This document shows positions 7,510 to 63,526 of a stretch of 64,000 nucleotides of DNA, one piece after another. Each line of letters begins with the position of its first letter. Position 1 is the stretch's first letter. A program made the translations under genes and the position numbers. Source of the DNA: a virus. The DNA is taken from positions 1 through 64,000 of the IMG/VR virus record IMGVR_UViG_3300042090_001278; one strand, 5' to 3'. Below the pieces are notes generated by a model. That model ran no database searches. It saw only the letters and a program-made list of their open reading frames with translations, and had not been told where the DNA came from.

Positions 7510-8571
7510 ATGGCCGCACGCAAGGAAAAATCGCCGACCGACACGGCAGCGCTTTTGCCCGTGTCCCCGGTGCCGATGAAGATGCAGCTACCTATCTCGC
7601 CGGCGACTTTAGCGGAGACCTCCCCCCAGCCCCCTCCTCCAGAGGGGGAGCAGGAGCCGTTGGGCGTGCCGCACCCGACAGCCGTTCTGGCGCCGTTGGG
7701 CGTGCCGCACCCGACAGCCGTTCTGCCGCCGGCGCCTCTTCCCGAGACGATCTTCGCCTGGGACGTGCCGTGCGAGCGGTTCGGGTACACGCTGCGGATC
7801 GAGGCTCCGGCTCCGAATGTGCATGCGGCGCGCGAGATGGCGATGGCCTACCGCGTGCCCGACGATTCGCAGTCGGTCGCCGGCGCGCCGCATCATGTCG
7901 ACCCTCTGCGGTCGACCGAGGAGATCGCAAAGGGCCGGCCGCTGACTCAGCTCGAGGCGAACTGGGTCGGAACGACCCCGCCGGTGGTGGTCCGGCGGAC
8001 GGCGGACGTGACGCTCTCACATGAGGCGGCGCTATTGCATAACACCCGGCTGAACGCCGAGAATGTCGGGTATTTGTCGACGAAGGATCTGTTCGCGGAA
8101 CACGAGATCGACGTTTTTCACCCGCAAGTGTTTATCGACCGGGTCATGGCCGAGGCCTCGGCGGTGGTCAAGGCGGCGACGGACAAGAGAGAGGCGGAGG
8201 AACGGGCGCTGTGGCTCGTTCTGACGCGGCTTGAGAGAGAGTTTGCAGCCGCGATCGGGTCGAGCCGCTACGCGCCTCCGAAGGCAGCGGCGCTGGTCGA
8301 GCCGGACTATGCTGATTTGACGATCGTGGTGCATGGCGATATCGAGGAGAGCCGGAACAAGTTCCGCCGGCTGGCGTCGGCCAATTGGACCGTGGTTGAG
8401 CCGGGCGAGCCGTTGACCGAGGATGAGCAGACGGCGATGGAAATGCTGACAGCCGACGAGACCGGCTTCTTCGACACGTCGATTCGCGGGTTCATCACCG
8501 AGGACCAGGAGCGAGGCCTGCGGGCGCTGCGGGCGCGGTTTGCCGCGCTGTTCGGCAAACGTCACGTTTGA
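7510..8571 (+). CDS. hypothetical phage protein with repeat inserts
   Basis: 353 residues; the ATG at 7510 is the one served by the GGGGAGA of the upstream cassette. Residues about 30-80 are built from a family G hairpin (PPPPEGEQEP) and two reverse copies of family C, giving LGVPHPTAVLAP twice. The rest looks like an ordinary soluble protein with helical charged segments (FIDRVMAEASAVVKAATDKREAEERALWL is helical in pattern). I do not recognise a family. Position among structural genes suggests a virion or assembly role. The last codons GKRHV-stop are supplied by the next family E cassette. Confidence 0.75.
   Translation: MAARKEKSPTDTAALLPVSPVPMKMQLPISPATLAETSPQPPPPEGEQEPLGVPHPTAVLAPLGVPHPTAVLPPAPLPETIFAWDVPCERFGYTLRIEAPAPNVHAAREMAMAYRVPDDSQSVAGAPHHVDPLRSTEEIAKGRPLTQLEANWVGTTPPVVVRRTADVTLSHEAALLHNTRLNAENVGYLSTKDLFAEHEIDVFHPQVFIDRVMAEASAVVKAATDKREAEERALWLVLTRLEREFAAAIGSSRYAPPKAAALVEPDYADLTIVVHGDIEESRNKFRRLASANWTVVEPGEPLTEDEQTAMEMLTADETGFFDTSIRGFITEDQERGLRALRARFAALFGKRHV
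7618..7655 (+). repeat. family G hairpin repeat
   Basis: ACCTCCCCCC head followed by CCCCCTC-loop-GAGGGGG. The second copy at 51358 has a longer stem with a different loop (CCCCCTCC-TTCGCAA-GGAGGGGG). Confidence 0.7.
7656..7730 (-). repeat. family C, two tandem copies
   Basis: Two tandem 36-bp units in reverse orientation relative to those at 33264. Each encodes LGVPHPTAVLAP in this frame. Confidence 0.85.
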
Positions 8572-13252: not shown

Positions 13253-13311
13253 CCTAGGGCATTTGCCCCTGGCTCTGAGTTGCGGACTGACGATTTGGGA
13301 GATTTTAGACC

Positions 13312-14484
13312 ATGCCGACGATAGAACGACCCGATTTCAAGCTGGGTGTCGACACCCCGACCATGGACCAAGTGCCGCCCGAAGTTCGCGCACGCTTTGA
13401 AGGCAAGGAGTATGCGGCGCCGTTGGCCGTGCCGCACCCGACAGCGGTTCTGGCGCCGGCAGCTACCGCCGCGTCCGGCGAGGTAGCTCCACCGATCGAC
13501 GAGACCCCCGTGGTCGACCCGGAGATTGAGGCGCTCGCGCAGGCAGCCAAGTCTCAGGATCAGGAGCGGAATGGGACGGATACGACGGTTGCCAGGACAG
13601 AGCCGTCGACTGGCGCCAAGCCGGCCGATGTCGCGCCGGGGGCACAGCCGGCAGAGGGCGAGAAGCCCGCCGAAGCCGCGCTCACGGCGACCGACGAGAG
13701 ACTGAACCTGGCGCTGCGCGCGGCGGCGGATGCGATCGGTGTCACCGAGACCGATCCGGCCAAGCTCCCGGAGGCGATTATCGCGCGTCGGGCCGAGCTT
13801 GCTACTCAGCAGGTAGCGCTGGAAAAGCAGATTCAGGATCAGGCGGACACGGCCGCGCTTCAGCGGATCACGACGAATGCCGATCAGCACCTGCGCGAGC
13901 TGCTCGACCCGGTGGTGCGAGCAGACCTCGCCAAGGAGTTCGGTATCGAGGCATGGCCGGACAACTGGTGGGAAGCGGATGCCTGGAACGACCCTACGGC
14001 CGCGGACATGCTGGTGCGGCGCTACAACCAGATTGAGGGCGGCTACAAGATGCTGCCTCAGTACGAGAATGCGTACAATTCGTCGATCGCCCAGGGCCGC
14101 GCTCAGTACGAGGCCGACAGCGCGAAGGTTGGGGCTCTCGATACCAAGTACCCGCTGGCATCGAAGGACGTTGTCAACCACCTGCGGCGTCTCGGGATGT
14201 CCGCCGAGGGTCTCGACACGATCGCGCAGATCACGCATGCGAGCGCGCTGCGGGCGAGCGGATCGAGCGCTTCCGAGGTCGAAAGTCTACGGTCGCAGGT
14301 CGCCGGCCACGAGGCGGCGCTGCAGAAGGCGCGTGCTGAAGGCAAAACCGAGGGCTTGAAGGGTTCGATCGATATCGCGAACGGGAAGGCGATCCCGGCG
14401 ACGACGGGCCTCGGGGCATCGTCCGAGACGGCTCCGGGCAACCTCGACCGAGTCAACTGGTCGATGAAGCTGTTCGGGCATTAA
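13312..14484 (+). CDS. scaffolding protein candidate
   Basis: 390 residues, acidic, Ala/Glu/Gln-rich and largely helical, lying between portal and major capsid gene as scaffolds do. Scaffolds line the procapsid and are lost before DNA enters. The N-terminal quarter carries a reverse family C unit (PLAVPHPTAVLAPA) and a family A insert (RNGTDTTVART). The middle part (DNWWEADAWNDPTAADMLVR) is compact. The C-terminal region is Lys/Arg-rich helical, as in the coat-binding end of scaffolds, followed by NLDRVNWSMKLFGH. Assignment rests on order and composition. Confidence 0.65.
   Translation: MPTIERPDFKLGVDTPTMDQVPPEVRARFEGKEYAAPLAVPHPTAVLAPAATAASGEVAPPIDETPVVDPEIEALAQAAKSQDQERNGTDTTVARTEPSTGAKPADVAPGAQPAEGEKPAEAALTATDERLNLALRAAADAIGVTETDPAKLPEAIIARRAELATQQVALEKQIQDQADTAALQRITTNADQHLRELLDPVVRADLAKEFGIEAWPDNWWEADAWNDPTAADMLVRRYNQIEGGYKMLPQYENAYNSSIAQGRAQYEADSAKVGALDTKYPLASKDVVNHLRRLGMSAEGLDTIAQITHASALRASGSSASEVESLRSQVAGHEAALQKARAEGKTEGLKGSIDIANGKAIPATTGLGASSETAPGNLDRVNWSMKLFGH
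13425..13460 (-). repeat. family C unit
   Basis: One 36-bp unit in the reverse orientation, encoding LAVPHPTAVLAP inside the scaffold candidate. Confidence 0.8.
13567..13600 (+). repeat. family A repeat, in frame
   Basis: Short copy inside the scaffold candidate encoding NGTDTTVART. Confidence 0.75.
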
Positions 14485-19506: not shown

Positions 19507-19560
19507 GGATTCAGGAATGGGACTTATTGGACGAATGGGACCGATGGGACCATGCCGCCG
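19507..19560 (+). repeat. family A repeat
   Basis: Intergenic copy between the glycosyltransferase stop and the connector gene, with full head and the CATGCCGCCG tail. Confidence 0.85.
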
Positions 19561-24843: not shown

Positions 24844-25497
24844 TTGCTCTCCTTTCGCGATCGGGTTCGTTTTGACGCTGGCGCACCGTGGGTGCGATCG
24901 GCGGCGTTTCGGTATGCGCGGCCGGGCGGCCTTTCGCGGGCGGATTTGGTCGGCGCCGGCAATTTGGGGCTGGCCAGGGCAGTCGCGCGGTTCGACGCGG
25001 CCCGCGGAGTGGCGTTTCGGTCGTTTGCGATCGGACAGATTCGCGGCGCGGTGCTCGAGGAGATTCGCGGGTGGTCGAGGATTCCCAGATGGGCGGAAAA
25101 GGAAGATCGGAAGAATGGGTCGGATGGGACGCCAGGAGATGGGTCCAATAAGACGAATGGGACAAATACGACAATGTCGCCGAGGGGACAGGACCGGGGC
25201 AGTTTGCTGGCGGATGTGATGTCGGTGTGCGGTCCCAAGAGTATTGACGATGACGAGGATGGGCAGTCGGGCGACCTGACGGCCGCGCTGGCGCTGTCGA
25301 GGATCGAGAATGCCCAGCTTTGGGCGTGTGTCGACAGGCTGCTGCCTTCCGAGGCGCGGGTCGTGAGGATGCACTACCGAGACGGGATGACGTTCGCGCA
25401 GGTGGCCGAGGCGCGCGGTGTCTGCGAGGGCGCTGAGTACAAGATACACGCGCGGGCGATGAAGAAGCTGAGGCGGATGATCTCGGAGTCTGTCTGA
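24844..25497 (+). CDS. sigma-70 family RNA polymerase sigma factor
   Basis: 217 residues from a TTG. Region 2 is clear: LSRADLVGAGNLGLARAVAR, FDAARGVAFRSFAIGQIRGA, then VLEEIRGWSRIPRW. Region 4 is at the C-terminus: LLPSEARVVRMHYRDGMTFA, QVAEARGV, then AMKKLRRMI. The linker carries a long family A insert (KNGSDGTPGDGSNKTNGTN). The type is closest to FliA/SigB-like alternative factors. A phage sigma factor would redirect host RNA polymerase to phage promoters. The stop codon (25495) lies inside the family D repeat. Confidence 0.82.
   Translation: MLSFRDRVRFDAGAPWVRSAAFRYARPGGLSRADLVGAGNLGLARAVARFDAARGVAFRSFAIGQIRGAVLEEIRGWSRIPRWAEKEDRKNGSDGTPGDGSNKTNGTNTTMSPRGQDRGSLLADVMSVCGPKSIDDDEDGQSGDLTAALALSRIENAQLWACVDRLLPSEARVVRMHYRDGMTFAQVAEARGVCEGAEYKIHARAMKKLRRMISESV
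25111..25193 (+). repeat. family A repeat, in frame, long copy
   Basis: Inside the sigma factor gene between regions 2 and 4, encoding an Asn/Gly/Thr/Asp linker. Confidence 0.85.
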
Positions 25498-49691: not shown

Positions 49692-49892
49692 TCATTGTTC
49701 TCTCGGGAAGCGCTTTTCCGCTTCGCGTACATGCCGCTCGTGTCTCAGCAGCTTGCGCAGAAGAGCGCTCAGTCCCTCTGGCTCGCCCTTGCCCCATTCT
49801 CCATCGTCAGGATCGAGCTCGACGGTGAACGTGCGTGTCACGATGCCGCTGGGCTTGGGACCAGGTCGGCGGCGTAGTGTTTCTTGTATCAT
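49692..49892 (-). CDS. small DNA-binding protein candidate (RHH-like)
   Basis: 66 residues: basic N-terminus TLRRRPGPKPSG, beta strand VTRTFTVELDPDD, then GLSALLRKLLRHERHVREAE. A beta strand followed by two helices and the position at the divergent control region suggest a ribbon-helix-helix regulator of the switch. Start ATG follows the -10 by 6 bases, a leaderless layout. The fold is inferred. Confidence 0.6.
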   Translation of the reverse strand: MIQETLRRRPGPKPSGIVTRTFTVELDPDDGEWGKGEPEGLSALLRKLLRHERHVREAEKRFPREQ

Positions 49893-49898
49893 GGATAG

Positions 49899-49928
49899 AT
49901 GATACCGTGATTTTTACAGAATTGTCAA
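49899..49928 (-). promoter_or_regulatory. leftward promoter
   Basis: TTGACA (49923-49928), 18-base spacer, TATCAT (49899-49904) on the minus strand, overlapping the ATACCGTGAT operator copy. Confidence 0.82.
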
Positions 49929-49972
49929 TATTAGTCAAAATAAGATTGACTAATACGTAATTATCACGGTAT
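49902..49972. promoter_or_regulatory. nested operators of the divergent control region
   Basis: Outer pair ATACCGTGAT (49902-49911) and its reverse complement ATCACGGTAT (49963-49972), each over a -10 box. Inner pair TATTAGTCAA (49929-49938) and TTGACTAATA (49946-49955). AT-rich in otherwise GC-rich DNA. Confidence 0.85.
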
Positions 49973-49975
49973 AAT
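49946..49975 (+). promoter_or_regulatory. rightward early promoter
   Basis: TTGACT (49946-49951), 18-base spacer, TATAAT (49970-49975). Drives the early operon starting at 50061. Confidence 0.85.
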
Positions 49976-49996
49976 TAGGTGTCAGTGAAAATTAAT

Positions 49997-51346: not shown

Positions 51347-51582
51347 TCTCAGAGAGGAACCTCCCCCCTACCCCCTCCTTCGCAAGGAGGGGGAGCCGGA
51401 TTCGGAGAAGCGCCGGCGGACGTCGAGTGTACGTCGTGACTGTCGTCTGCCTGTGCGTGACGCTCGCGGTGCTGCTGTGGGCCGTGTTCACGATGGGCGG
51501 GGCCGTTGCGAGGCAGACGGATGCGCGGGCTGTCGAGAGCGCGTATGACCTGGGGTCGACGGGTGCCGATAGGATTGTCTGA
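51343..51582 (+). CDS. small membrane protein with repeat-derived N-terminus
   Basis: 79 residues; ATG overlaps the previous stop (ATGA). Residues 5-18 (RNLPPTPSFARRGS) are the translated family G hairpin (51358-51395). A single membrane helix follows (YVVTVVCLCVTLAVLLWAVF). The stop codon (51580) is supplied by a family D repeat. Confidence 0.65.
   Translation: MISERNLPPTPSFARRGSRIRRSAGGRRVYVVTVVCLCVTLAVLLWAVFTMGGAVARQTDARAVESAYDLGSTGADRIV
51358..51395 (+). repeat. family G hairpin repeat, in frame
   Basis: ACCTCCCCCC head, CCCCCTCC-TTCGCAA-GGAGGGGG stem and loop. Compare 7618. Confidence 0.8.
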
Positions 51583-52764: not shown

Positions 52765-53123
52765 ACCACCAAATCGTGATCTACCAGTCCGAGCTGGGCG
52801 TCGAGAGTGTCGGCATTCCGGGCTCGTGGCTGTCGACGGTCGATGTCGTGCTGGTCAGCGGCGACGCCGAGCGCGAGAAGCACGGCGACCAGAGTCACTA
52901 CGTTGTCAGCCGGCCATATGTCGACGCGGAGGAGGAGGTCAAGCGGGCGGCGGACATCTACGCGAAGATCGCGGCGCTGCCGCCGCTGCCGCGATTGACG
53001 CACCATGCGCCGGGGGCGGTCCTGCGGCCGGACTGCTGCGCGGCGCACGGGAAGGAGTGGGACCGGAGGAACAAGGGAGAGTTCGCGGGGAATCGGATGA
53101 TTCAGGGAATCGTGAATCTATGA
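52761..53123 (+). CDS. small protein, intact paralogue
   Basis: 120 residues: MNHQIVIYQSELGVESVGIP, then DVVLVSGDAEREKHGDQSHY and YVDAEEEVKRAADIYAKIA, with two Cys (PDCCAAHG) near the end. The intact version of the frameshifted copy at 51931. Looks like a small phage regulator or adaptor; no family recognised. Confidence 0.68.
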   Translation: MNHQIVIYQSELGVESVGIPGSWLSTVDVVLVSGDAEREKHGDQSHYVVSRPYVDAEEEVKRAADIYAKIAALPPLPRLTHHAPGAVLRPDCCAAHGKEWDRRNKGEFAGNRMIQGIVNL

Positions 53124-53141
53124 CCCACCGAGCGGCGGAAG

Positions 53142-53205
53142 GTAGTCAGGGATTTGTGATTCCCTGAATTATTATCGATTCAGGGATTTACAAATCCCTG
53201 ACTAC
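53142..53205. repeat. large inverted repeat with nested hairpins
   Basis: Outer arms GTAGTCAGGGATTTGT (53142-53157) and ACAAATCCCTGACTAC (53190-53205) pair perfectly over 16 bases; the loop holds ATTCCCTGAAT and ATTCAGGGAT, which also pair. TCAGGGA/TCCCTGA words recur nearby (53102, 53806). Confidence 0.85.
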
Positions 53206-53215
53206 GTGTTAGAAT
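53187..53215 (+). promoter_or_regulatory. promoter within the inverted repeat
   Basis: TTTACA (53187-53192), 17-base spacer, TAGAAT (53210-53215). The right arm of the inverted repeat covers the spacer. The ATG at 53222 begins 7 bases after the -10, a leaderless layout. Confidence 0.72.
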
Positions 53216-53221
53216 GGCGTC

Positions 53222-56336: not shown

Positions 56337-56531
56337 GTGACCCGCCGTCGCTTTTTGTATTTTTGCCGAACGCCGTCGAGGGACCGCGCGTGCAGGCACA
56401 CGCACGGGCCAGTGTCATTATACCCAAATAAGGATTCTGATTTGAAGCCGCCGAAGAATCAAACATTTGTGTGCCGCTAAGTGCGTGCGATTTGGGGTAT
56501 TGTAGTTTTCAACACCCCTGGCTGGAGACTC

Positions 56532-58049
56532 ATGCCCGACGACGACCTTGCAGGCACAAGGCGTGCTAACCCCACACCTGACGATAGTAATAGAGCAGCC
56601 GAATCGATTTCCCTCGAGGCGGTGATAGCTGTTTGGCCGACAGCGGTGGCGTCGACCTGCGGTAAGAAAAAACGGTCGGAGAGCTGGCTGAGGGACGCTA
56701 GGCCGGTGGGTGTCGATGGCAGCCAGATTGTGATCGGTCTGTTGACGGAGGGCGCGAAGGTCCATGTCGACAAGTTCCTCAAGCCGGCGCTAATTGCCGC
56801 TCTCGCGGAGCTGCTGCCGGAGGTTGGATCTGTCCGCGTGGTGGTGCGGGAGCCGGAGGTGCCTGGGATCGCGGTGGTCGGGCAGGCAATCCCTCCCGTG
56901 GCGCGCGGGCAAACGATCGAGGAGCAGAGCCAGGTCGTGGAGCGCGTGGCCCGCCGCCTGGTCGACGAGTCGGAGCGTTTCAAGCGCAGGGACGGCGGGT
57001 GTCCTGAGTTCTTCGTCTATCCGGTTTCGCTGATGTTTCCGTGGCGGGTGATTCGTGTCGCCAAGGACAAAGACGGGAACCCGATACCGCTGCAAAACCT
57101 CTGGTTCGGGCGGTCAGGCAGGTTTGTGCATGCAATCCACGGAGGCCTGGACAAGGACGGGAATCCGATGGGGATTCCGGGTCATTCGTTCCCGCTGCTC
57201 GTCGGGATTTGCCTGACGACGGAGTATAAGTATCCCCTGGACAAGGGCACGGTTGGGCCGCGCATCTGTCTGGGCGATACGCTGGCGGACTTTGCTAGGG
57301 CGTGCGGATACAAGGGCGCGTTTCGAGGCGAGAAGGCAAAACGGTTCCTGGAGCGGTTGTATCAGTATTTCGCTTGCACGCACAGGATTATCGAGTTCGC
57401 CACGGACGACGACGCGCTTGCGTTCTACAAGGAGATCACGGCGGCCGGTTTCGTCCCGAGCCGAGAGGAGCTTGCACAGAGCGGCAGACTGGCGAAGAGC
57501 GACGATCCGACGAAGGTTCACGATCCAGACTACACGATGATGGTTGTCGGTAGTCGCCGGCTGGCCGATTACAACATCTGGACGCAGGCGGACATTGCGC
57601 GAGACTGGAATGAGCGCGGGCCGTTCGGGTGGGTGGTGCTGACGGATGAGTATGTCACCAAGTTCGCGACGCACGGCGTGCCTCTCTCGACTCATGTGCT
57701 TGCCGCACTGCTCAAGAATGCGCAGGATGTCGCGCTGTACACGTACCTGACGCAGCGCGTGTTCCAGTTACGCAAAGAGGGCCACAAGTCCGTGACGATC
57801 CGCCTGAGCTCCTTCCAGGACCACCTGGGCATCAACCGGACGAAGGAGAATCGGCGGCCGTCCGGGATGATTAAGGCGATTCGCGAGCGCGTGGCTCCGG
57901 CCTGGGACGCGGCCGCGATGGCGATGGGCAAGCCGGAGTGCTGTTTCCGGTACACACTGGAGGAAGGGCACAGCCGTTTTGCGGCGCGAATCACGCTGTT
58001 CCCGACCCCTCCCCTGATCGACCGACCCGGTGGCCAGCCTCAAGATTGA
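56532..58049 (+). CDS. repA: plasmid-type replication initiator RepA with DnaA-domain-I-like N-terminus
   Basis: 505 residues; ATG chosen with GGAG 5 bases upstream. Residues about 35-105 (ESWLRDARPVGVDGSQIVIG, HVDKFLKPALIAALAELLPE, SVRVVV) follow DnaA domain I. From about residue 180: FPLLVGICLTTEYKYPLDKG, RICLGDTLADFARACGY, FLERLYQYFACTHRIIEF, then WVVLTDEYVTKF and LLKNAQDVALYTYLTQRVFQ match RepA_C-type plasmid initiators, which bind iterons and open the origin. A repeat array follows directly. DnaA domain I recruits DnaB-type helicase, so the fusion may load helicase itself. Confidence 0.8.
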   Translation: MPDDDLAGTRRANPTPDDSNRAAESISLEAVIAVWPTAVASTCGKKKRSESWLRDARPVGVDGSQIVIGLLTEGAKVHVDKFLKPALIAALAELLPEVGSVRVVVREPEVPGIAVVGQAIPPVARGQTIEEQSQVVERVARRLVDESERFKRRDGGCPEFFVYPVSLMFPWRVIRVAKDKDGNPIPLQNLWFGRSGRFVHAIHGGLDKDGNPMGIPGHSFPLLVGICLTTEYKYPLDKGTVGPRICLGDTLADFARACGYKGAFRGEKAKRFLERLYQYFACTHRIIEFATDDDALAFYKEITAAGFVPSREELAQSGRLAKSDDPTKVHDPDYTMMVVGSRRLADYNIWTQADIARDWNERGPFGWVVLTDEYVTKFATHGVPLSTHVLAALLKNAQDVALYTYLTQRVFQLRKEGHKSVTIRLSSFQDHLGINRTKENRRPSGMIKAIRERVAPAWDAAAMAMGKPECCFRYTLEEGHSRFAARITLFPTPPLIDRPGGQPQD

Positions 58050-58084
58050 TGCGCGGTCGTATGTTCGGAAATCTATCTTACAAA

Positions 58085-58107
58085 TGTACCTGCGACTCCC
58101 GGTAACG
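58085..58107 (+). repeat. single iteron-like repeat
   Basis: TGTACCTGCGACTCCCGGTA followed by ACG, about 35 bases after the repA stop. Possibly a RepA site for autoregulation. Confidence 0.75.
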
Positions 58108-58180
58108 TGATGAACACGTGCGGACACTTCGGATCATGTGTTCGTAAAAACCAGTAGAATGTATAACGGTCTTTCAGCGT

Positions 58181-58206
58181 AACAGCCCCGGAAACGGGGC
58201 TGTTTC
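58181..58206 (+). terminator. terminator after repA
   Basis: Stem AACAGCCCCG/CGGGGCTGTT with a GAAA loop, followed by TCC. Confidence 0.75.
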
Positions 58207-58220
58207 CACGACTCCCCTTT

Positions 58221-58390
58221 GCGTACCTCCGTCTCTCGCTAACGCCCTGCGTCTCTCGCTAACGTCCTCGGACTCCCGGTAACTCGGGCAAAAGCGTACC
58301 TCGGACTCCCGGCATGCGTACCCGCGAGTCCCGAAAAGGTGTACCCGCGAGTCTCGGTAACTCGGGCAAAAGCGTACCTGCGACTCCCAG
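58221..58390 (+). other. iteron array (replication origin)
   Basis: Seven copies of a GYGTACCYSCGASTCYCGG-type word (with TAAC after most). Core starts at 58231, 58251, 58271, 58304, 58326, 58349, 58382: spacings 20, 20, 33, 22, 23, 33, close to two or three helical turns, so all sites face roughly the same side. Directly downstream of repA, as in iteron plasmids. Confidence 0.82.
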
Positions 58391-58434
58391 GCTCTTATAA
58401 TCCGTAAATTCAGTAAGCTCTTCTTATAAGCGAG
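58391..58434. other. AT-rich patch next to iterons
   Basis: Contains CTTATAATCCGTAAATTCAG and CTTCTTATAAGCG; a possible DNA-unwinding element. Short inverted repeats CTTATAA/TTATAAG occur. Confidence 0.55.
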
Positions 58435-58641
58435 AGGCTCCGGAGAGGCGGGGCGGCGCGGACGCCGCGATCTTTTGCGGCGACTAACGTCGCGGAACCG
58501 GATTGGCTCTTTATGATTGCGGTTCGGGCCTGGATTCGCTTGCCGGTCGCCAGGACGGCTGCCGTTGGCGTCAGGAGAGGCGCTGCGCGGTCGCGACGGC
58601 GTGATCGACGCGATTATCAAGGTGGGCGTTTGCTCGCTCTC

Positions 58642-58671
58642 TTGACATCGTGGCGGGTCAGGGTGTAGAAT
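58642..58671 (+). promoter_or_regulatory. promoter
   Basis: TTGACA (58642-58647), 18-base spacer, TAGAAT (58666-58671). Confidence 0.75.
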
Positions 58672-58672
58672 G

Positions 58673-58712
58673 ATTTGGGGATTTGGGGATTTGGGGATTT
58701 GGGGATTTGGGA
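58673..58712 (+). repeat. five 8-bp tandem repeats, G-quadruplex motif in a leader
   Basis: ATTTGGGG four times and ATTTGGGA once, starting 1 base after the -10 box and ending 3 bases before the ATG. Four GGGG runs with ATTT loops fit an intramolecular G-quadruplex, in the transcript as well as in DNA. Confidence 0.9.
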
Positions 58713-58715
58713 TAG

Positions 58716-58916
58716 ATGGCTAAAGAAGAGCATCCAACAGATTTGCCGATCGTCAAGACCGATCGATATGGCCGGCCGACGCTGGGCGAGGTAGTCTCGA
58801 ATCGCTACTACAGCTTCGAGCTCCGCGCTGACGGCGTGATAATACTAAGGCCGCTTAGTATTACCGTGACCAGTAACGCTCCGGTGAACGGGGAGAAGTC
58901 GGGGGAATCGACGTGA
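58716..58916 (+). CDS. small protein behind the G-rich leader
   Basis: 66 residues: IVKTDRYGRPTLGEVVSNRY then YSFELRADGVIILRPLSI. The pattern (two beta strands around a turn) could be an AbrB/antitoxin-like fold, unproven. Within the gene AATACTAAG and CTTAGTATT form a perfect inverted repeat (58842-58863). The ribosome site can only come from the G-rich tandem. Stop overlaps the next GTG. Confidence 0.6.
   Translation: MAKEEHPTDLPIVKTDRYGRPTLGEVVSNRYYSFELRADGVIILRPLSITVTSNAPVNGEKSGEST
58842..58863. repeat. palindrome inside small gene
   Basis: AATACTAAG-GCCG-CTTAGTATT, 9-bp arms; the only AT-rich part of the gene. Confidence 0.7.
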
Positions 58917-59365
58917 GTCCGGAAGAATTGTTTGGTCACATTACTCATCTGGCTGAAAGCACGGCGGATATAAGCCCCTGTCATTCCTTGGTGTTTCGCG
59001 CGCTGATTGAGGTAATGAAGCCTGATGGCGATGAGGAATGCAGCCGGTTGGCTACTTGCGACCTGTACAACGCAGTGATTGCGCATTCAAAGCGTGCCTC
59101 GGCGATGCGTGCTCTCATGGCGGATGCGCGGAGTAATTCCCACGCGATGCACGAGGAGATGTCGCGGCTGATGTCGATGGGCGTTGAGTCGGGCGGATAC
59201 CTGCCGGCACGCGTTAAGGATGGTAGAGCCCTGTTGCATGTGACCTGGCTAGAGAAGGACGGAACTCCAATGGTTTCTCCTCCTGGGCGTCACGCTCCTT
59301 CGGTTACAGAATCAAGCGGCAATCGCGCCGATCGGCGGCGCGATCTTCGACGCTCGCGGAGGTAA
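58913..59365 (+). CDS. small helical protein
   Basis: 150 residues, GTG start in a GTGA overlap. Helical with Cys, HSLVFRALIEVMKPDGDEEC, ending in a strongly basic tail (NRADRRRDLRRSRR) that may bind nucleic acid. No family recognised. Confidence 0.62.
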   Translation: MSPEELFGHITHLAESTADISPCHSLVFRALIEVMKPDGDEECSRLATCDLYNAVIAHSKRASAMRALMADARSNSHAMHEEMSRLMSMGVESGGYLPARVKDGRALLHVTWLEKDGTPMVSPPGRHAPSVTESSGNRADRRRDLRRSRR

Positions 59366-59371
59366 CTGACC

Positions 59372-59569
59372 ATGACCGCGCACCTGTCGATGATGCAGCG
59401 GATCGACATGGCGAGGCGGCGAGCTCGGGAGGGCTGTAGCCGGCGTCGGCGGCGGCAGGTGTACTTGGATCGCAAGAAGCGCCGCGCGGTCATTCTGAGT
59501 ACGAGGGTTGAGTGGGTGTACAATCGCGAGACGGGACGGTATCGGCGCGTGGTATTGAAACGAACCTGA
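59372..59569 (+). CDS. small basic protein
   Basis: 65 residues with GGAGG 8 bases upstream. Arg-rich (ARRRAREGCSRRRRRQVYLD), probably nucleic-acid-binding. No family recognised. Confidence 0.6.
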   Translation: MTAHLSMMQRIDMARRRAREGCSRRRRRQVYLDRKKRRAVILSTRVEWVYNRETGRYRRVVLKRT

Positions 59570-59608
59570 TCTCTAATCGAACCAGCCGATCCGCTTCTAA
59601 TCGAACCA

Positions 59609-59635
59609 GAGCCCGCCGGCGTCGCCGGCGGGCTC
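59609..59635. terminator. bidirectional hairpin between convergent genes
   Basis: 13-base arms GAGCCCGCCGGCG and CGCCGGCGGGCTC around one base. A short direct repeat TCTAATCGAACCAG lies just before it (two copies). No T-run. Confidence 0.65.
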
Positions 59636-59689
59636 GATGGATTCTTGGTGGTGGCGGATGATCGAGAGTGACATCGTTGTGTCACTGGC

Positions 59690-59911
59690 TCAGATGATGC
59701 GCGAGGCGATCTCGGCTTGGCGGATGATGTGGCGGATGGTGGCGCCATTCTTGAGGCCCAGGCGCTTTCCCTCTGCCTCGACGAATTCGCGGAGGTCCTG
59801 CTCGAGACGCAGGCCAGCTTGCGCTTTGGTGGCCGGCTTGCGTTTGCGGCCGGCTCCAGGGCGCGCGCCGCCGCGCCCTGGTTTGGTCGTGCTTGTCGAT
59901 GGCTGGCTCAT
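59690..59911 (-). CDS. small DNA-binding protein candidate
   Basis: 73 residues. AT-hook-like, flexible N-terminus GRGGARPGAGRKRKP, then AGLRLEQDLREFVEAEGKRL and GATIRHIIRQAEIASRII, consistent with a ribbon-helix-helix or similar small regulator. ATG overlaps the stop of the large gene upstream (ATGA). Confidence 0.65.
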   Translation of the reverse strand: MSQPSTSTTKPGRGGARPGAGRKRKPATKAQAGLRLEQDLREFVEAEGKRLGLKNGATIRHIIRQAEIASRII

Positions 59912-61854
59912 GTGAGTTTGATCCCCTTGTACGCCGATCGCGCGGCGCTCTCGTCGTCGTAGGTCGTTGTGCGATCGTCAGCGTCGCCGTCCTCGCCCAT
60001 TGACCACCATCCCTCATTGACGAGCCAGAGCGTTTGGATCTCACCGTCTGTCGTGACCACTTCGAGCCTGTTGATCCGCTTGGTTGTGCCGCTGTTGCCT
60101 CTCGATTTCTCGGCTTCGTCGATCTTGGTATCCGATGTGACGGCCGCGATTTCGGGGCGCTTGGTCGTTTTCCTGATGGCCTCGAGTTTCCGGTCAGTTG
60201 CCGCAGCCGTCGCGCGGTTTCGGTAGGACTGCGCGGCGATCTCGATGTCGTCCTCGGTGAGGGTGCTGATGTCAATGAGTTTGCTGTAGCTGGTGTATCC
60301 GATCGACATCGAGGCAAATAGCCGGCCGTCGGGATGTCGATAGAAATGGGGGTAGGTGGTCGTGTTGTGCAGGTGCATGACGGCATCGGTGAGGTTGGGG
60401 TCGATGTCGGCACGTCCCAGGTGAGTGAGAATCGCGGGTTCGACGCCGGCGACCTCGGCGGCGGGCAGTTCGTAGCGCGCGTATTCGTCCCGGATCAGCC
60501 ACTCGGTTGATGTCGCGATGTCGATATATCGCTGCTGACCGTCGCGGTCGATCAGGTGCAGCCATGGATAATCATCAACTGGGATGTTACCGGCCGGGGC
60601 TCGCCTGCCGATTGCGCGCAGTACCTCGCGTGCTGCGTCGACCTCGCCGCGCAGCTCGGCCATGTGTCGATAGTGCTCGTTGGCCCAGGAGTCGATGACG
60701 CTCGCGGGTGCGTAGCGCGTCCCGGTTTGACGATCGAGAAAAACGGCCGTTCCGTCCGCGAGTTCGGCGCGCGCCGTTTCGGCGTCGGCCGTGGGCCAGT
60801 TGGTCCAGGCGTTCCATGTCATGAGGCTCGACGGTGGATGCATTTTGGTTGCGGTGAGGCGCGAGGTCGCGGATTCGAACGAGATTGTCGATACGCGGTA
60901 GGCGTCGAGGTCCGCGCGCCAGGTCGGAGCGACGCGGTCCATGAATGCCTGCCGCGCGTCGTCGAAGGGGAATCGGTAGCCGAGCCCGTGGCTGGTGTTG
61001 GTGTCGGCCCAACAGTCGCCGTCTGCGCTGTTGTTGTGGCAGTACCAGATGTAGCCGCCGGCGCCGTCGATGACCCATCGCGCAAATCCCTTGCCGTCCG
61101 GGTCCTCGATAACGATGCCCTGGAGTTTGTGGGCGTTGCCGTCGTCCGCGAATGAGTATTCCGCGCCCGATTCTTTCGTGTGTGCAAAAAGTTGATGCTG
61201 CTCGTCCCGGAGCGCTCTACGCTCGGCTTGCGCGGCTTCGCTGGCCAGGAGCGGGGCGGATTCTTCGTCCGTCGCGAGCCGAGCGGCGTAGGAATAGAGA
61301 TAGCCCTCCTCGTCGCCAACGCCAAACGACATGCCGTCCTCTCTGATGTACTGTGATGTGCAGTCGAGGATGACGACGATCTGACTTTCGTCGCGAGGAT
61401 TCCGCATGACCGTGCCGGCGGCGATGTAGTCGCCGCCGTAGTGCTCGCCGCGTGAGAACCGGATGGCGTCGGCCGGGACAGCGGCGGTCTGTGCGGCTGC
61501 CTCGCGGCGGATATCGTCCTTGGTGACGATCTTGCCCTTGCGTCCGCAGTTGGGGCAGAGTAGGTCGTTACCGGTGCGCACAAACACGCACTGGGAATAG
61601 GTCTCTGGCTTGTCCTTGTCAAAACCGGGGAGCTTTTTGCAGCAAACGCAGACGATGGGCTGGTTGGTGTAGCCACCGGTTTGCACTGGCTCTCCGCCAG
61701 GCTCGGCGGCGTCGAGGCGGATGGTTACATATTCACCGTAGGCCGAGGATGCCGATCCGGCCAGCTCCCAGCCGCTCGCCCCCTTGATGATCTCAGCGCC
61801 GGCTTTGTAGTTGCGACCTGTCCTTGCGCACGTTCCGCCAAATCTTGCTCTCAT
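59908..61854 (-). CDS. large zinc-ribbon protein of unknown function
   Basis: 648 residues. Two N-terminal metal sites: CARTGRNYKAGAEIIKG near residue 9 and VCVCCKK...CPNCGRKG (about residues 68-105). The rest is a mosaic of beta and helical parts (IWYCHNNSADGDCWADTNTS, LMTWNAWTNWPTADAETARA) ending in DDESAARSAYKGIKLT. Such long leftward genes with a zinc-ribbon start occur on plasmids and phages, but I recognise no enzyme motif. It is followed by an AT-hook protein gene. Confidence 0.72.
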   Translation of the reverse strand: MRARFGGTCARTGRNYKAGAEIIKGASGWELAGSASSAYGEYVTIRLDAAEPGGEPVQTGGYTNQPIVCVCCKKLPGFDKDKPETYSQCVFVRTGNDLLCPNCGRKGKIVTKDDIRREAAAQTAAVPADAIRFSRGEHYGGDYIAAGTVMRNPRDESQIVVILDCTSQYIREDGMSFGVGDEEGYLYSYAARLATDEESAPLLASEAAQAERRALRDEQHQLFAHTKESGAEYSFADDGNAHKLQGIVIEDPDGKGFARWVIDGAGGYIWYCHNNSADGDCWADTNTSHGLGYRFPFDDARQAFMDRVAPTWRADLDAYRVSTISFESATSRLTATKMHPPSSLMTWNAWTNWPTADAETARAELADGTAVFLDRQTGTRYAPASVIDSWANEHYRHMAELRGEVDAAREVLRAIGRRAPAGNIPVDDYPWLHLIDRDGQQRYIDIATSTEWLIRDEYARYELPAAEVAGVEPAILTHLGRADIDPNLTDAVMHLHNTTTYPHFYRHPDGRLFASMSIGYTSYSKLIDISTLTEDDIEIAAQSYRNRATAAATDRKLEAIRKTTKRPEIAAVTSDTKIDEAEKSRGNSGTTKRINRLEVVTTDGEIQTLWLVNEGWWSMGEDGDADDRTTTYDDESAARSAYKGIKLT

Positions 61855-63396: not shown

Positions 63397-63425
63397 AGTA
63401 TAGCACCGATGAGTCGGGATGTCAA
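63397..63425 (-). promoter_or_regulatory. strong promoter of the DUF932 gene
   Basis: On the minus strand TTGACA (63420-63425), 17-base spacer, TATACT (63397-63402). Confidence 0.9.
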
Positions 63426-63470
63426 TAGCGTAACGTGACATTTCGCAAAATTACTGAAAATAGTTTCGTA

Positions 63471-63526
63471 ATTGCGTCTGACCGCAATAATTGCGTCTGA
63501 CCGCAATAATTGCGTCTGACCGCAAT
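63471..63526. repeat. three tandem 19-bp palindromic repeats
   Basis: ATTGCGTCTGACCGCAATA three times (the last lacks the final A); each is a palindrome ATTGCG/CGCAAT. A weak promoter-like TTGCGT-16-TACACT (63510-63537) overlaps the third copy. Operator or centromere-type site. Confidence 0.88.

Follow-up and report, generated by a model that had tools for sequence, protein, structure and literature searches.

Potential G-quadruplexes (G4s) are enriched near bacterial gene starts (PMC12563890), and translation of some genes of M. tuberculosis is inhibited when RNA G4s are stabilized (PMC10801317). In E. coli reporters, a G4 placed about 20 bp upstream of the start codon is reported to lower translation with transcription unchanged, and G4s more distant from the start codon to raise it (PMC11087576). 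Much of the evidence considered here on quadruplexes in bacterial 5′ UTRs comes from designed reporters. G-rich repeats on the non-template strand are also highly unstable when transcribed, with (G3T)8 in this orientation being 270–354 times more mutable than in the opposite one (PMC7023247).

Here, we analyzed a 64,000-nt window, which is part of a 67,202-bp virus record, in which the leader of a small gene consists almost entirely of a G-rich tandem repeat. We regard this leader as a naturally occurring example of an effect already known in kind and not as a new mechanism.

The octamer array and the gene it precedes

The order of elements at the locus was read directly. A −35 hexamer (TTGACA, 58642–58647, + strand) and a −10 hexamer (TAGAAT, 58666–58671, + strand) are separated by an 18-nt spacer and followed by G58672, the octamers, a TAG and the ATG at 58716. 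The two hexamers match the consensus of a sigma-70-like promoter at 11 of 12 positions and form the best promoter-type site in 57900–60000, where 2 sites were found against 0.8 expected. Tandem Repeats Finder returned five exact tandem copies of GATTTGGG at 58672–58711 on the + strand (period 8, 5.0 copies, 100% match). The same array can be phased as ATTTGGGG at 58673, 58681, 58689 and 58697, followed by ATTTGGGA at 58705–58712. An earlier note on this DNA had described five octamers spanning the distance from the −10 box to the ATG, and both direct reading and the repeat search confirm it: the array exactly fills the space between these two elements. Its G runs are GGGG at 58677–58680, 58685–58688, 58693–58696 and 58701–58704 and GGG at 58709–58711, with ATTT as the loops.

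The array is far beyond chance. Its period-8 self-match run covers 32 bases, compared to a maximum of 14 in 30 simulated third-order Markov sequences of the record across all periods from 4 to 24. The two-unit word GATTTGGGGATTTGGG with up to 3 mismatches gave 4 overlapping matches, all at the array, where 0.39 were expected, and no further copies at up to 2 mismatches were found elsewhere in the whole 67,202-bp record. Repeats of other kinds occur in the same DNA. Tandem repeats of 36 bp lie within long coding sequences (7656–7731, 33264–33412 and 34899–35008) and encode peptide repeats, among them ERLSGAARPAAP and ASSATHPLSEAG. A 9-bp word of the GAATAGGAC/ATGGGACGA type forms short arrays dispersed at 19515, 21112, 23591, 24183, 25139, 50407, 55122, 63645 and other positions, often intergenic and sometimes within ORFs. 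A 27-base 9-mer repeat pattern, which was too specific, found no match in a genome scan.

The gene downstream, ORF66 (58716–58916, + strand), encodes an orphan protein of 66 aa and is coding by codon usage, with 1.3% of non-coding frames scoring equally high. It has no match in Pfam or NCBIfam, only a weak resemblance to a PHROG antitoxin (phrog_19414, E=0.035), and a predicted model of low confidence (pLDDT 69, pTM 0.34) that is too weak for a fold search; on these grounds, we rejected ORF66 as a recognized transcription factor. ORF150 (58913–59365, + strand), whose start overlaps the ORF66 stop (GTGA), is another orphan with an ambiguous codon score, no recognized family and a model of low confidence. 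The in-frame TAG directly before the ATG rules out the array as a coding N-terminal extension of ORF66. A 17-codon ORF, MIWGFGDLGIWGFGIDG (ATG 58670, stop 58721–58723), extends across the array into the beginning of ORF66, which its stop overlaps, ending 5 nt downstream of the first base of the ORF66 ATG. Because the ATG of this short ORF falls inside the −10 box, it would be missing from the transcript of the array promoter, and the ORF can be translated only from read-through transcripts.

The only Shine-Dalgarno (SD)-like sequence of ORF66 is formed by the GGGG of unit 4 and the GGG of unit 5 (58701–58711, + strand). Their anti-SD pairing was calculated at −5.5 kcal/mol for GGGG (58701–58704, 11 nt from the ATG) and −4.0 kcal/mol for GGG (58709–58711, 4 nt from the ATG), or −6.1 kcal/mol combined. 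These duplex energies, with no other SD present, support the claim of the earlier note that the repeat contains the only candidate ribosome site. Recognizable SD sequences were found at many clearly coding genes of the phage; the ORF66 energy is close to that of the replication initiator Rep (−6.4 kcal/mol), and many genes are stronger (−8 to −11 kcal/mol). As about 11% of random sites match or beat its pairing, we grade the predicted site as weak yet usable, within the range of this phage. The gene with its ATG at 13312 carries a single GATTTGGGAG in the SD position (13292–13301), which suggests by analogy a plausible unexpanded state, in which one unit could have been an ordinary SD before expansion.

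A probable plasmid-type origin beside the array

Judged by its gene content, the record is best described as a phage-plasmid, because matches to terminase, portal and major head protein occur together with a tyrosine recombinase (65730–66851), a plasmid-type Rep of the RepA_C type and iterons. Rep (56532–58049, + strand) has its own SD, GGAG, and its RepA_C match just exceeds the Pfam cut-off (PF04796, 27.4 bits vs 26). Eight degenerate iterons of ~20–23 bp, of the GCGTACCTGCGACTCCCGGTAAC type, follow at 58084–58394 (+ strand) as the probable oriV and end 0.3 kb upstream of the array. The array is unrelated to the iterons in sequence, which rules it out as part of them. The record also encodes a GH25 lysin and a sigma-70 family factor with regions 2 and 4 (24892–25497; PHROG sigma factor, E=4e-20).

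A single GATTTGGGG at 56489–56497 (+ strand), ~35–43 nt upstream of the Rep ATG, is a possible second copy of the array motif and possibly a chance match. The Rep leader further contains a 9-bp imperfect hairpin, GGGGTATTG/CAACACCCC (56490–56520), whose left arm shares bases with a GATTTGGGG and which lies just 5′ of the Rep SD. At 63469–63526, ~45 bp upstream of the strong promoter at 63425 (− strand) of a DUF932 gene, TAATTGCGTCTGACCGCAA is repeated in tandem as three perfect 19-bp copies that each contain a TTGCG/CGCAA inverted repeat; these are likely an operator array. Divergent, nearly overlapping strong promoters at 49880–49990 share palindromic sites and could constitute a lysogeny switch, and a promoter at 53187 sits within a long GTAGTCAGGGATTTGT/ACAAATCCCTGACTAC inverted repeat (53120–53220).

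Searches for relatives of Rep, ORF66, the head protein, the recombinase and a 648-aa protein in IMG/VR, INPHARED and PLSDB, as tested, returned none, nor did GTDB contigs, searched for Rep only. The array itself was not found in 2.9 million IMG/VR contigs. The sole relative found is a 15-kb record (L006), recognized via its terminase (73% identity); the 12 kb of it that we examined contain no such array, and its record has no ORF66 match. In the translation of its region 152–790, the terminase appears by eye to be interrupted by an intein-like sequence ending VSHNS, just before STTG (Walker A region).

Quadruplex potential and candidate roles of the leader

The earlier note had read the whole leader as a quadruplex motif. 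This holds for the non-template DNA strand, where the four GGGG runs with ATTT loops satisfy the quadruplex rule (at least 4 runs of at least 3 G, loops of 1–7 nt) as GGGG(ATTTGGGG)3 plus GGG. With a G4Hunter score of +2.08, the array ranks near the top of the record by magnitude, below −2.16 near 7616 and −2.12 near 51360, and is thus a prominent but not unique G-rich stretch.

For the RNA, the claim stands only in part. We folded transcripts with ViennaRNA, allowing quadruplexes. A transcript beginning at 58677 is predicted to form a four-tier quadruplex of −26.4 kcal/mol in the leader alone, and this fold is still favored when the transcript extends through 58800 (−50.5 vs −33.9 kcal/mol). 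From 58678, the leader alone has only a three-tier option of −7.7 kcal/mol, and with downstream coding sequence added, ordinary pairing wins and the minimum-energy fold lacks a quadruplex. A stable four-tier RNA quadruplex is, in these models, predicted only with transcription starting at or before 58677, the first G. With its first base only 6 nt past the −10 box, the first GGGG may be transcribed in part only. Because the −10 box ends at 58671 and transcription probably starts within 58677–58680, the RNA quadruplex hangs on one or two bases; the commonest start distance from a −10 box corresponds to 58678 or later. An ordinary hairpin in the leader was dismissed, its z-score of +0.78 being no better than shuffles, and no known RNA family matched the leader.

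Our tentative explanation, to which we give somewhat less than an even chance, is a leader expanded by slippage, in which the 3′ units also serve as the ribosome site and quadruplex folding damps translation. A single GATTTGGG word just before ORF66 would have been duplicated by slippage to five copies, leaving the transcribed leader with ~38 nt of G-rich repeat in which the last two units (GGGG/GGG) provide the sole, weak SD pairing. Stacking of the G runs as a quadruplex, either in the transcript or, while transcription proceeds, in the displaced non-template strand, would withhold the same Gs from the ribosome, and the outcome would be weak or tunable ORF66 expression in the phage-plasmid. 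The perfect 5 × 8 array lying exactly between −10 and ATG, its role as the sole SD with an energy near that of Rep, and the single-unit leader at 13312 are consistent with this reading, as is the strongly favored four-tier RNA fold if transcription starts early enough. Published work adds that a G4 near the start codon lowers E. coli translation (PMC11087576) and that the instability of transcribed G-rich repeats offers a route for both expansion and loss (PMC7023247). Against it, the predicted RNA quadruplex is weak from 58678 or later and loses to ordinary pairing, and the databases searched held no relative of the leader, Rep or ORF66 to show conservation. The sign of the effect is also uncertain, since G4s farther upstream can raise translation (PMC11087576).

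Expansion may instead have been neutral: a short leader with no regulatory role beyond a passable ribosome site would recently have undergone tandem duplication. We consider this rather unlikely, although the identical units are what one expects of a young array, the phage has other perfect or near-perfect tandem repeats (the 36-bp coding repeats among them), the array was not found in the 2.9 million contigs, and no sign of conservation emerged. Speaking against neutral expansion are the array's borders, which fall precisely at the −10 box and at the ribosome site, and a G4Hunter score among the record's highest magnitudes. The earlier note had instead seen a typical setting for phase variation, with slippage changing the leader length. 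In such a switch, unit number would control ORF66 expression via leader length, quadruplex number or translational coupling to the 17-codon ORF on read-through transcripts. In its favor, the repeat is short and perfect, instability of transcribed G-rich repeats is reported in E. coli (PMC7023247), the overlapping MIWGFGDLGIWGFGIDG frame would be sensitive to unit number, and a leader-peptide repeat switch at Streptococcus gallolyticus pil1 sets a precedent (PMC3894217). However, a phase-variable repeat alters the reading frame or the promoter spacing through its unit number, and here both stay unchanged, with the array outside the −35/−10 spacer and outside ORF66. The note had also pointed to a unit that is not a multiple of three; unit length modulo three is irrelevant to ORF66, because the array lies outside the ORF and the spacer and an in-frame TAG precedes the ATG. 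With only five units, a short ORF whose ATG is absent from the array promoter's transcript, and no second allele or second record of the leader in the databases searched (one record only), the typical phase-variation setting is not supported, and we judge switching of this kind highly improbable.

The octamers could also act as DNA sites. They may be direct-repeat binding sites, covering +1 to +35, through which a regulator such as a small ribbon-helix-helix (RHH) protein or ORF66 itself represses the ORF66 operon, perhaps coupling it to Rep expression or plasmid maintenance by analogy with the direct-repeat operators and centromeres of plasmids. At plasmid partition loci, the centromere is commonly made of repeats at the par promoter and comes with small repressor proteins (PMC5016525). 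Such a tandem operator is plausible because an exact GATTTGGGG lies near Rep and the phage's other strong promoters (at 63425, the 49.9-kb divergent pair and 53187) have repeats or palindromes; the array also sits 0.3 kb from the iterons. Yet the octamer is not palindromic, ORF66 belongs to no recognized DNA-binding family and has a low-confidence model, and the protein at 59690–59911 looks like an RHH protein by eye, with weak library matches. To our knowledge, the G-rich octamer type is unlike known RHH sites. No ParA-, ParM- or TubZ-type NTPase was recognized among the proteins scanned, a subset of the ORFs, and overall we hold the operator to be unlikely. Further from our preference, a strong promoter with downstream non-template G clusters might form an R-loop or hybrid quadruplex by the iteron origin that opens the DNA or primes replication. 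The distance of ~0.3 kb from the iterons, the strong G skew (+0.43 to +0.63) that the non-template strand shows locally and the established transcription-driven R-loop and G4 formation in such sequences (PMC7023247) fit this proposal. On the other hand, coding sequence with its own use for the leader begins 4 nt after the array, the record shows no overall skew minimum at this position, and canonical origins of the iteron and Rep type work without such a primer, leaving a replication role the faintest of prospects. A single element might be read at two levels, as an operator or R-loop/quadruplex site by the origin and as the entire leader at which ribosomes bind the mRNA of a small maintenance gene, which would tie that gene's expression to the replication state of the plasmid; this, too, strikes us as very improbable.

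A natural leader made solely of a quadruplex-capable repeat that encloses the ribosome site would offer a compact test of whether phages use such folds. If it is merely slippage-expanded, it illustrates how easily quadruplex motifs arise without function. The candidate is neat but mostly ordinary, and its interest is modest because its function rests on inference and no relatives were found to show conservation.

Comparison with known systems

Among described systems, par loci with direct-repeat operators and centromeres (PMC5016525) resemble the locus in that a small operon next to a plasmid origin carries tandem repeats at its promoter; the repeat here is G-rich and a putative binding site, and no partition NTPase was recognized among the proteins scanned. 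The pil1 GCAGA switch of Streptococcus gallolyticus (PMC3894217) has in common with the array a short tandem repeat whose unit is not a multiple of three, located in a leader that is transcribed. Its 22 units belong to a leader peptide that is translated and precedes a terminator, whereas the array promoter's transcript lacks a leader-peptide start and has no terminator between the array and the gene. The translation-enhancing 5′ UTR RNA G4 of Lee et al. 2024 (PMC11087576) also has G4-capable non-template sequence downstream of a promoter but, unlike the array, lies 43–46 nt upstream of the SD and has an effect opposite in sign to the damping proposed here. Engineered E. coli RNA quadruplexes at or near the SD (reporters of the Holder/Hartig type, per PMC11087576) similarly have G runs near the ribosome site or overlapping it. 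Those are designed inserts, whereas here a putative quadruplex, predicted from sequence, would be formed by a repeat that makes up the whole natural leader and the SD itself.
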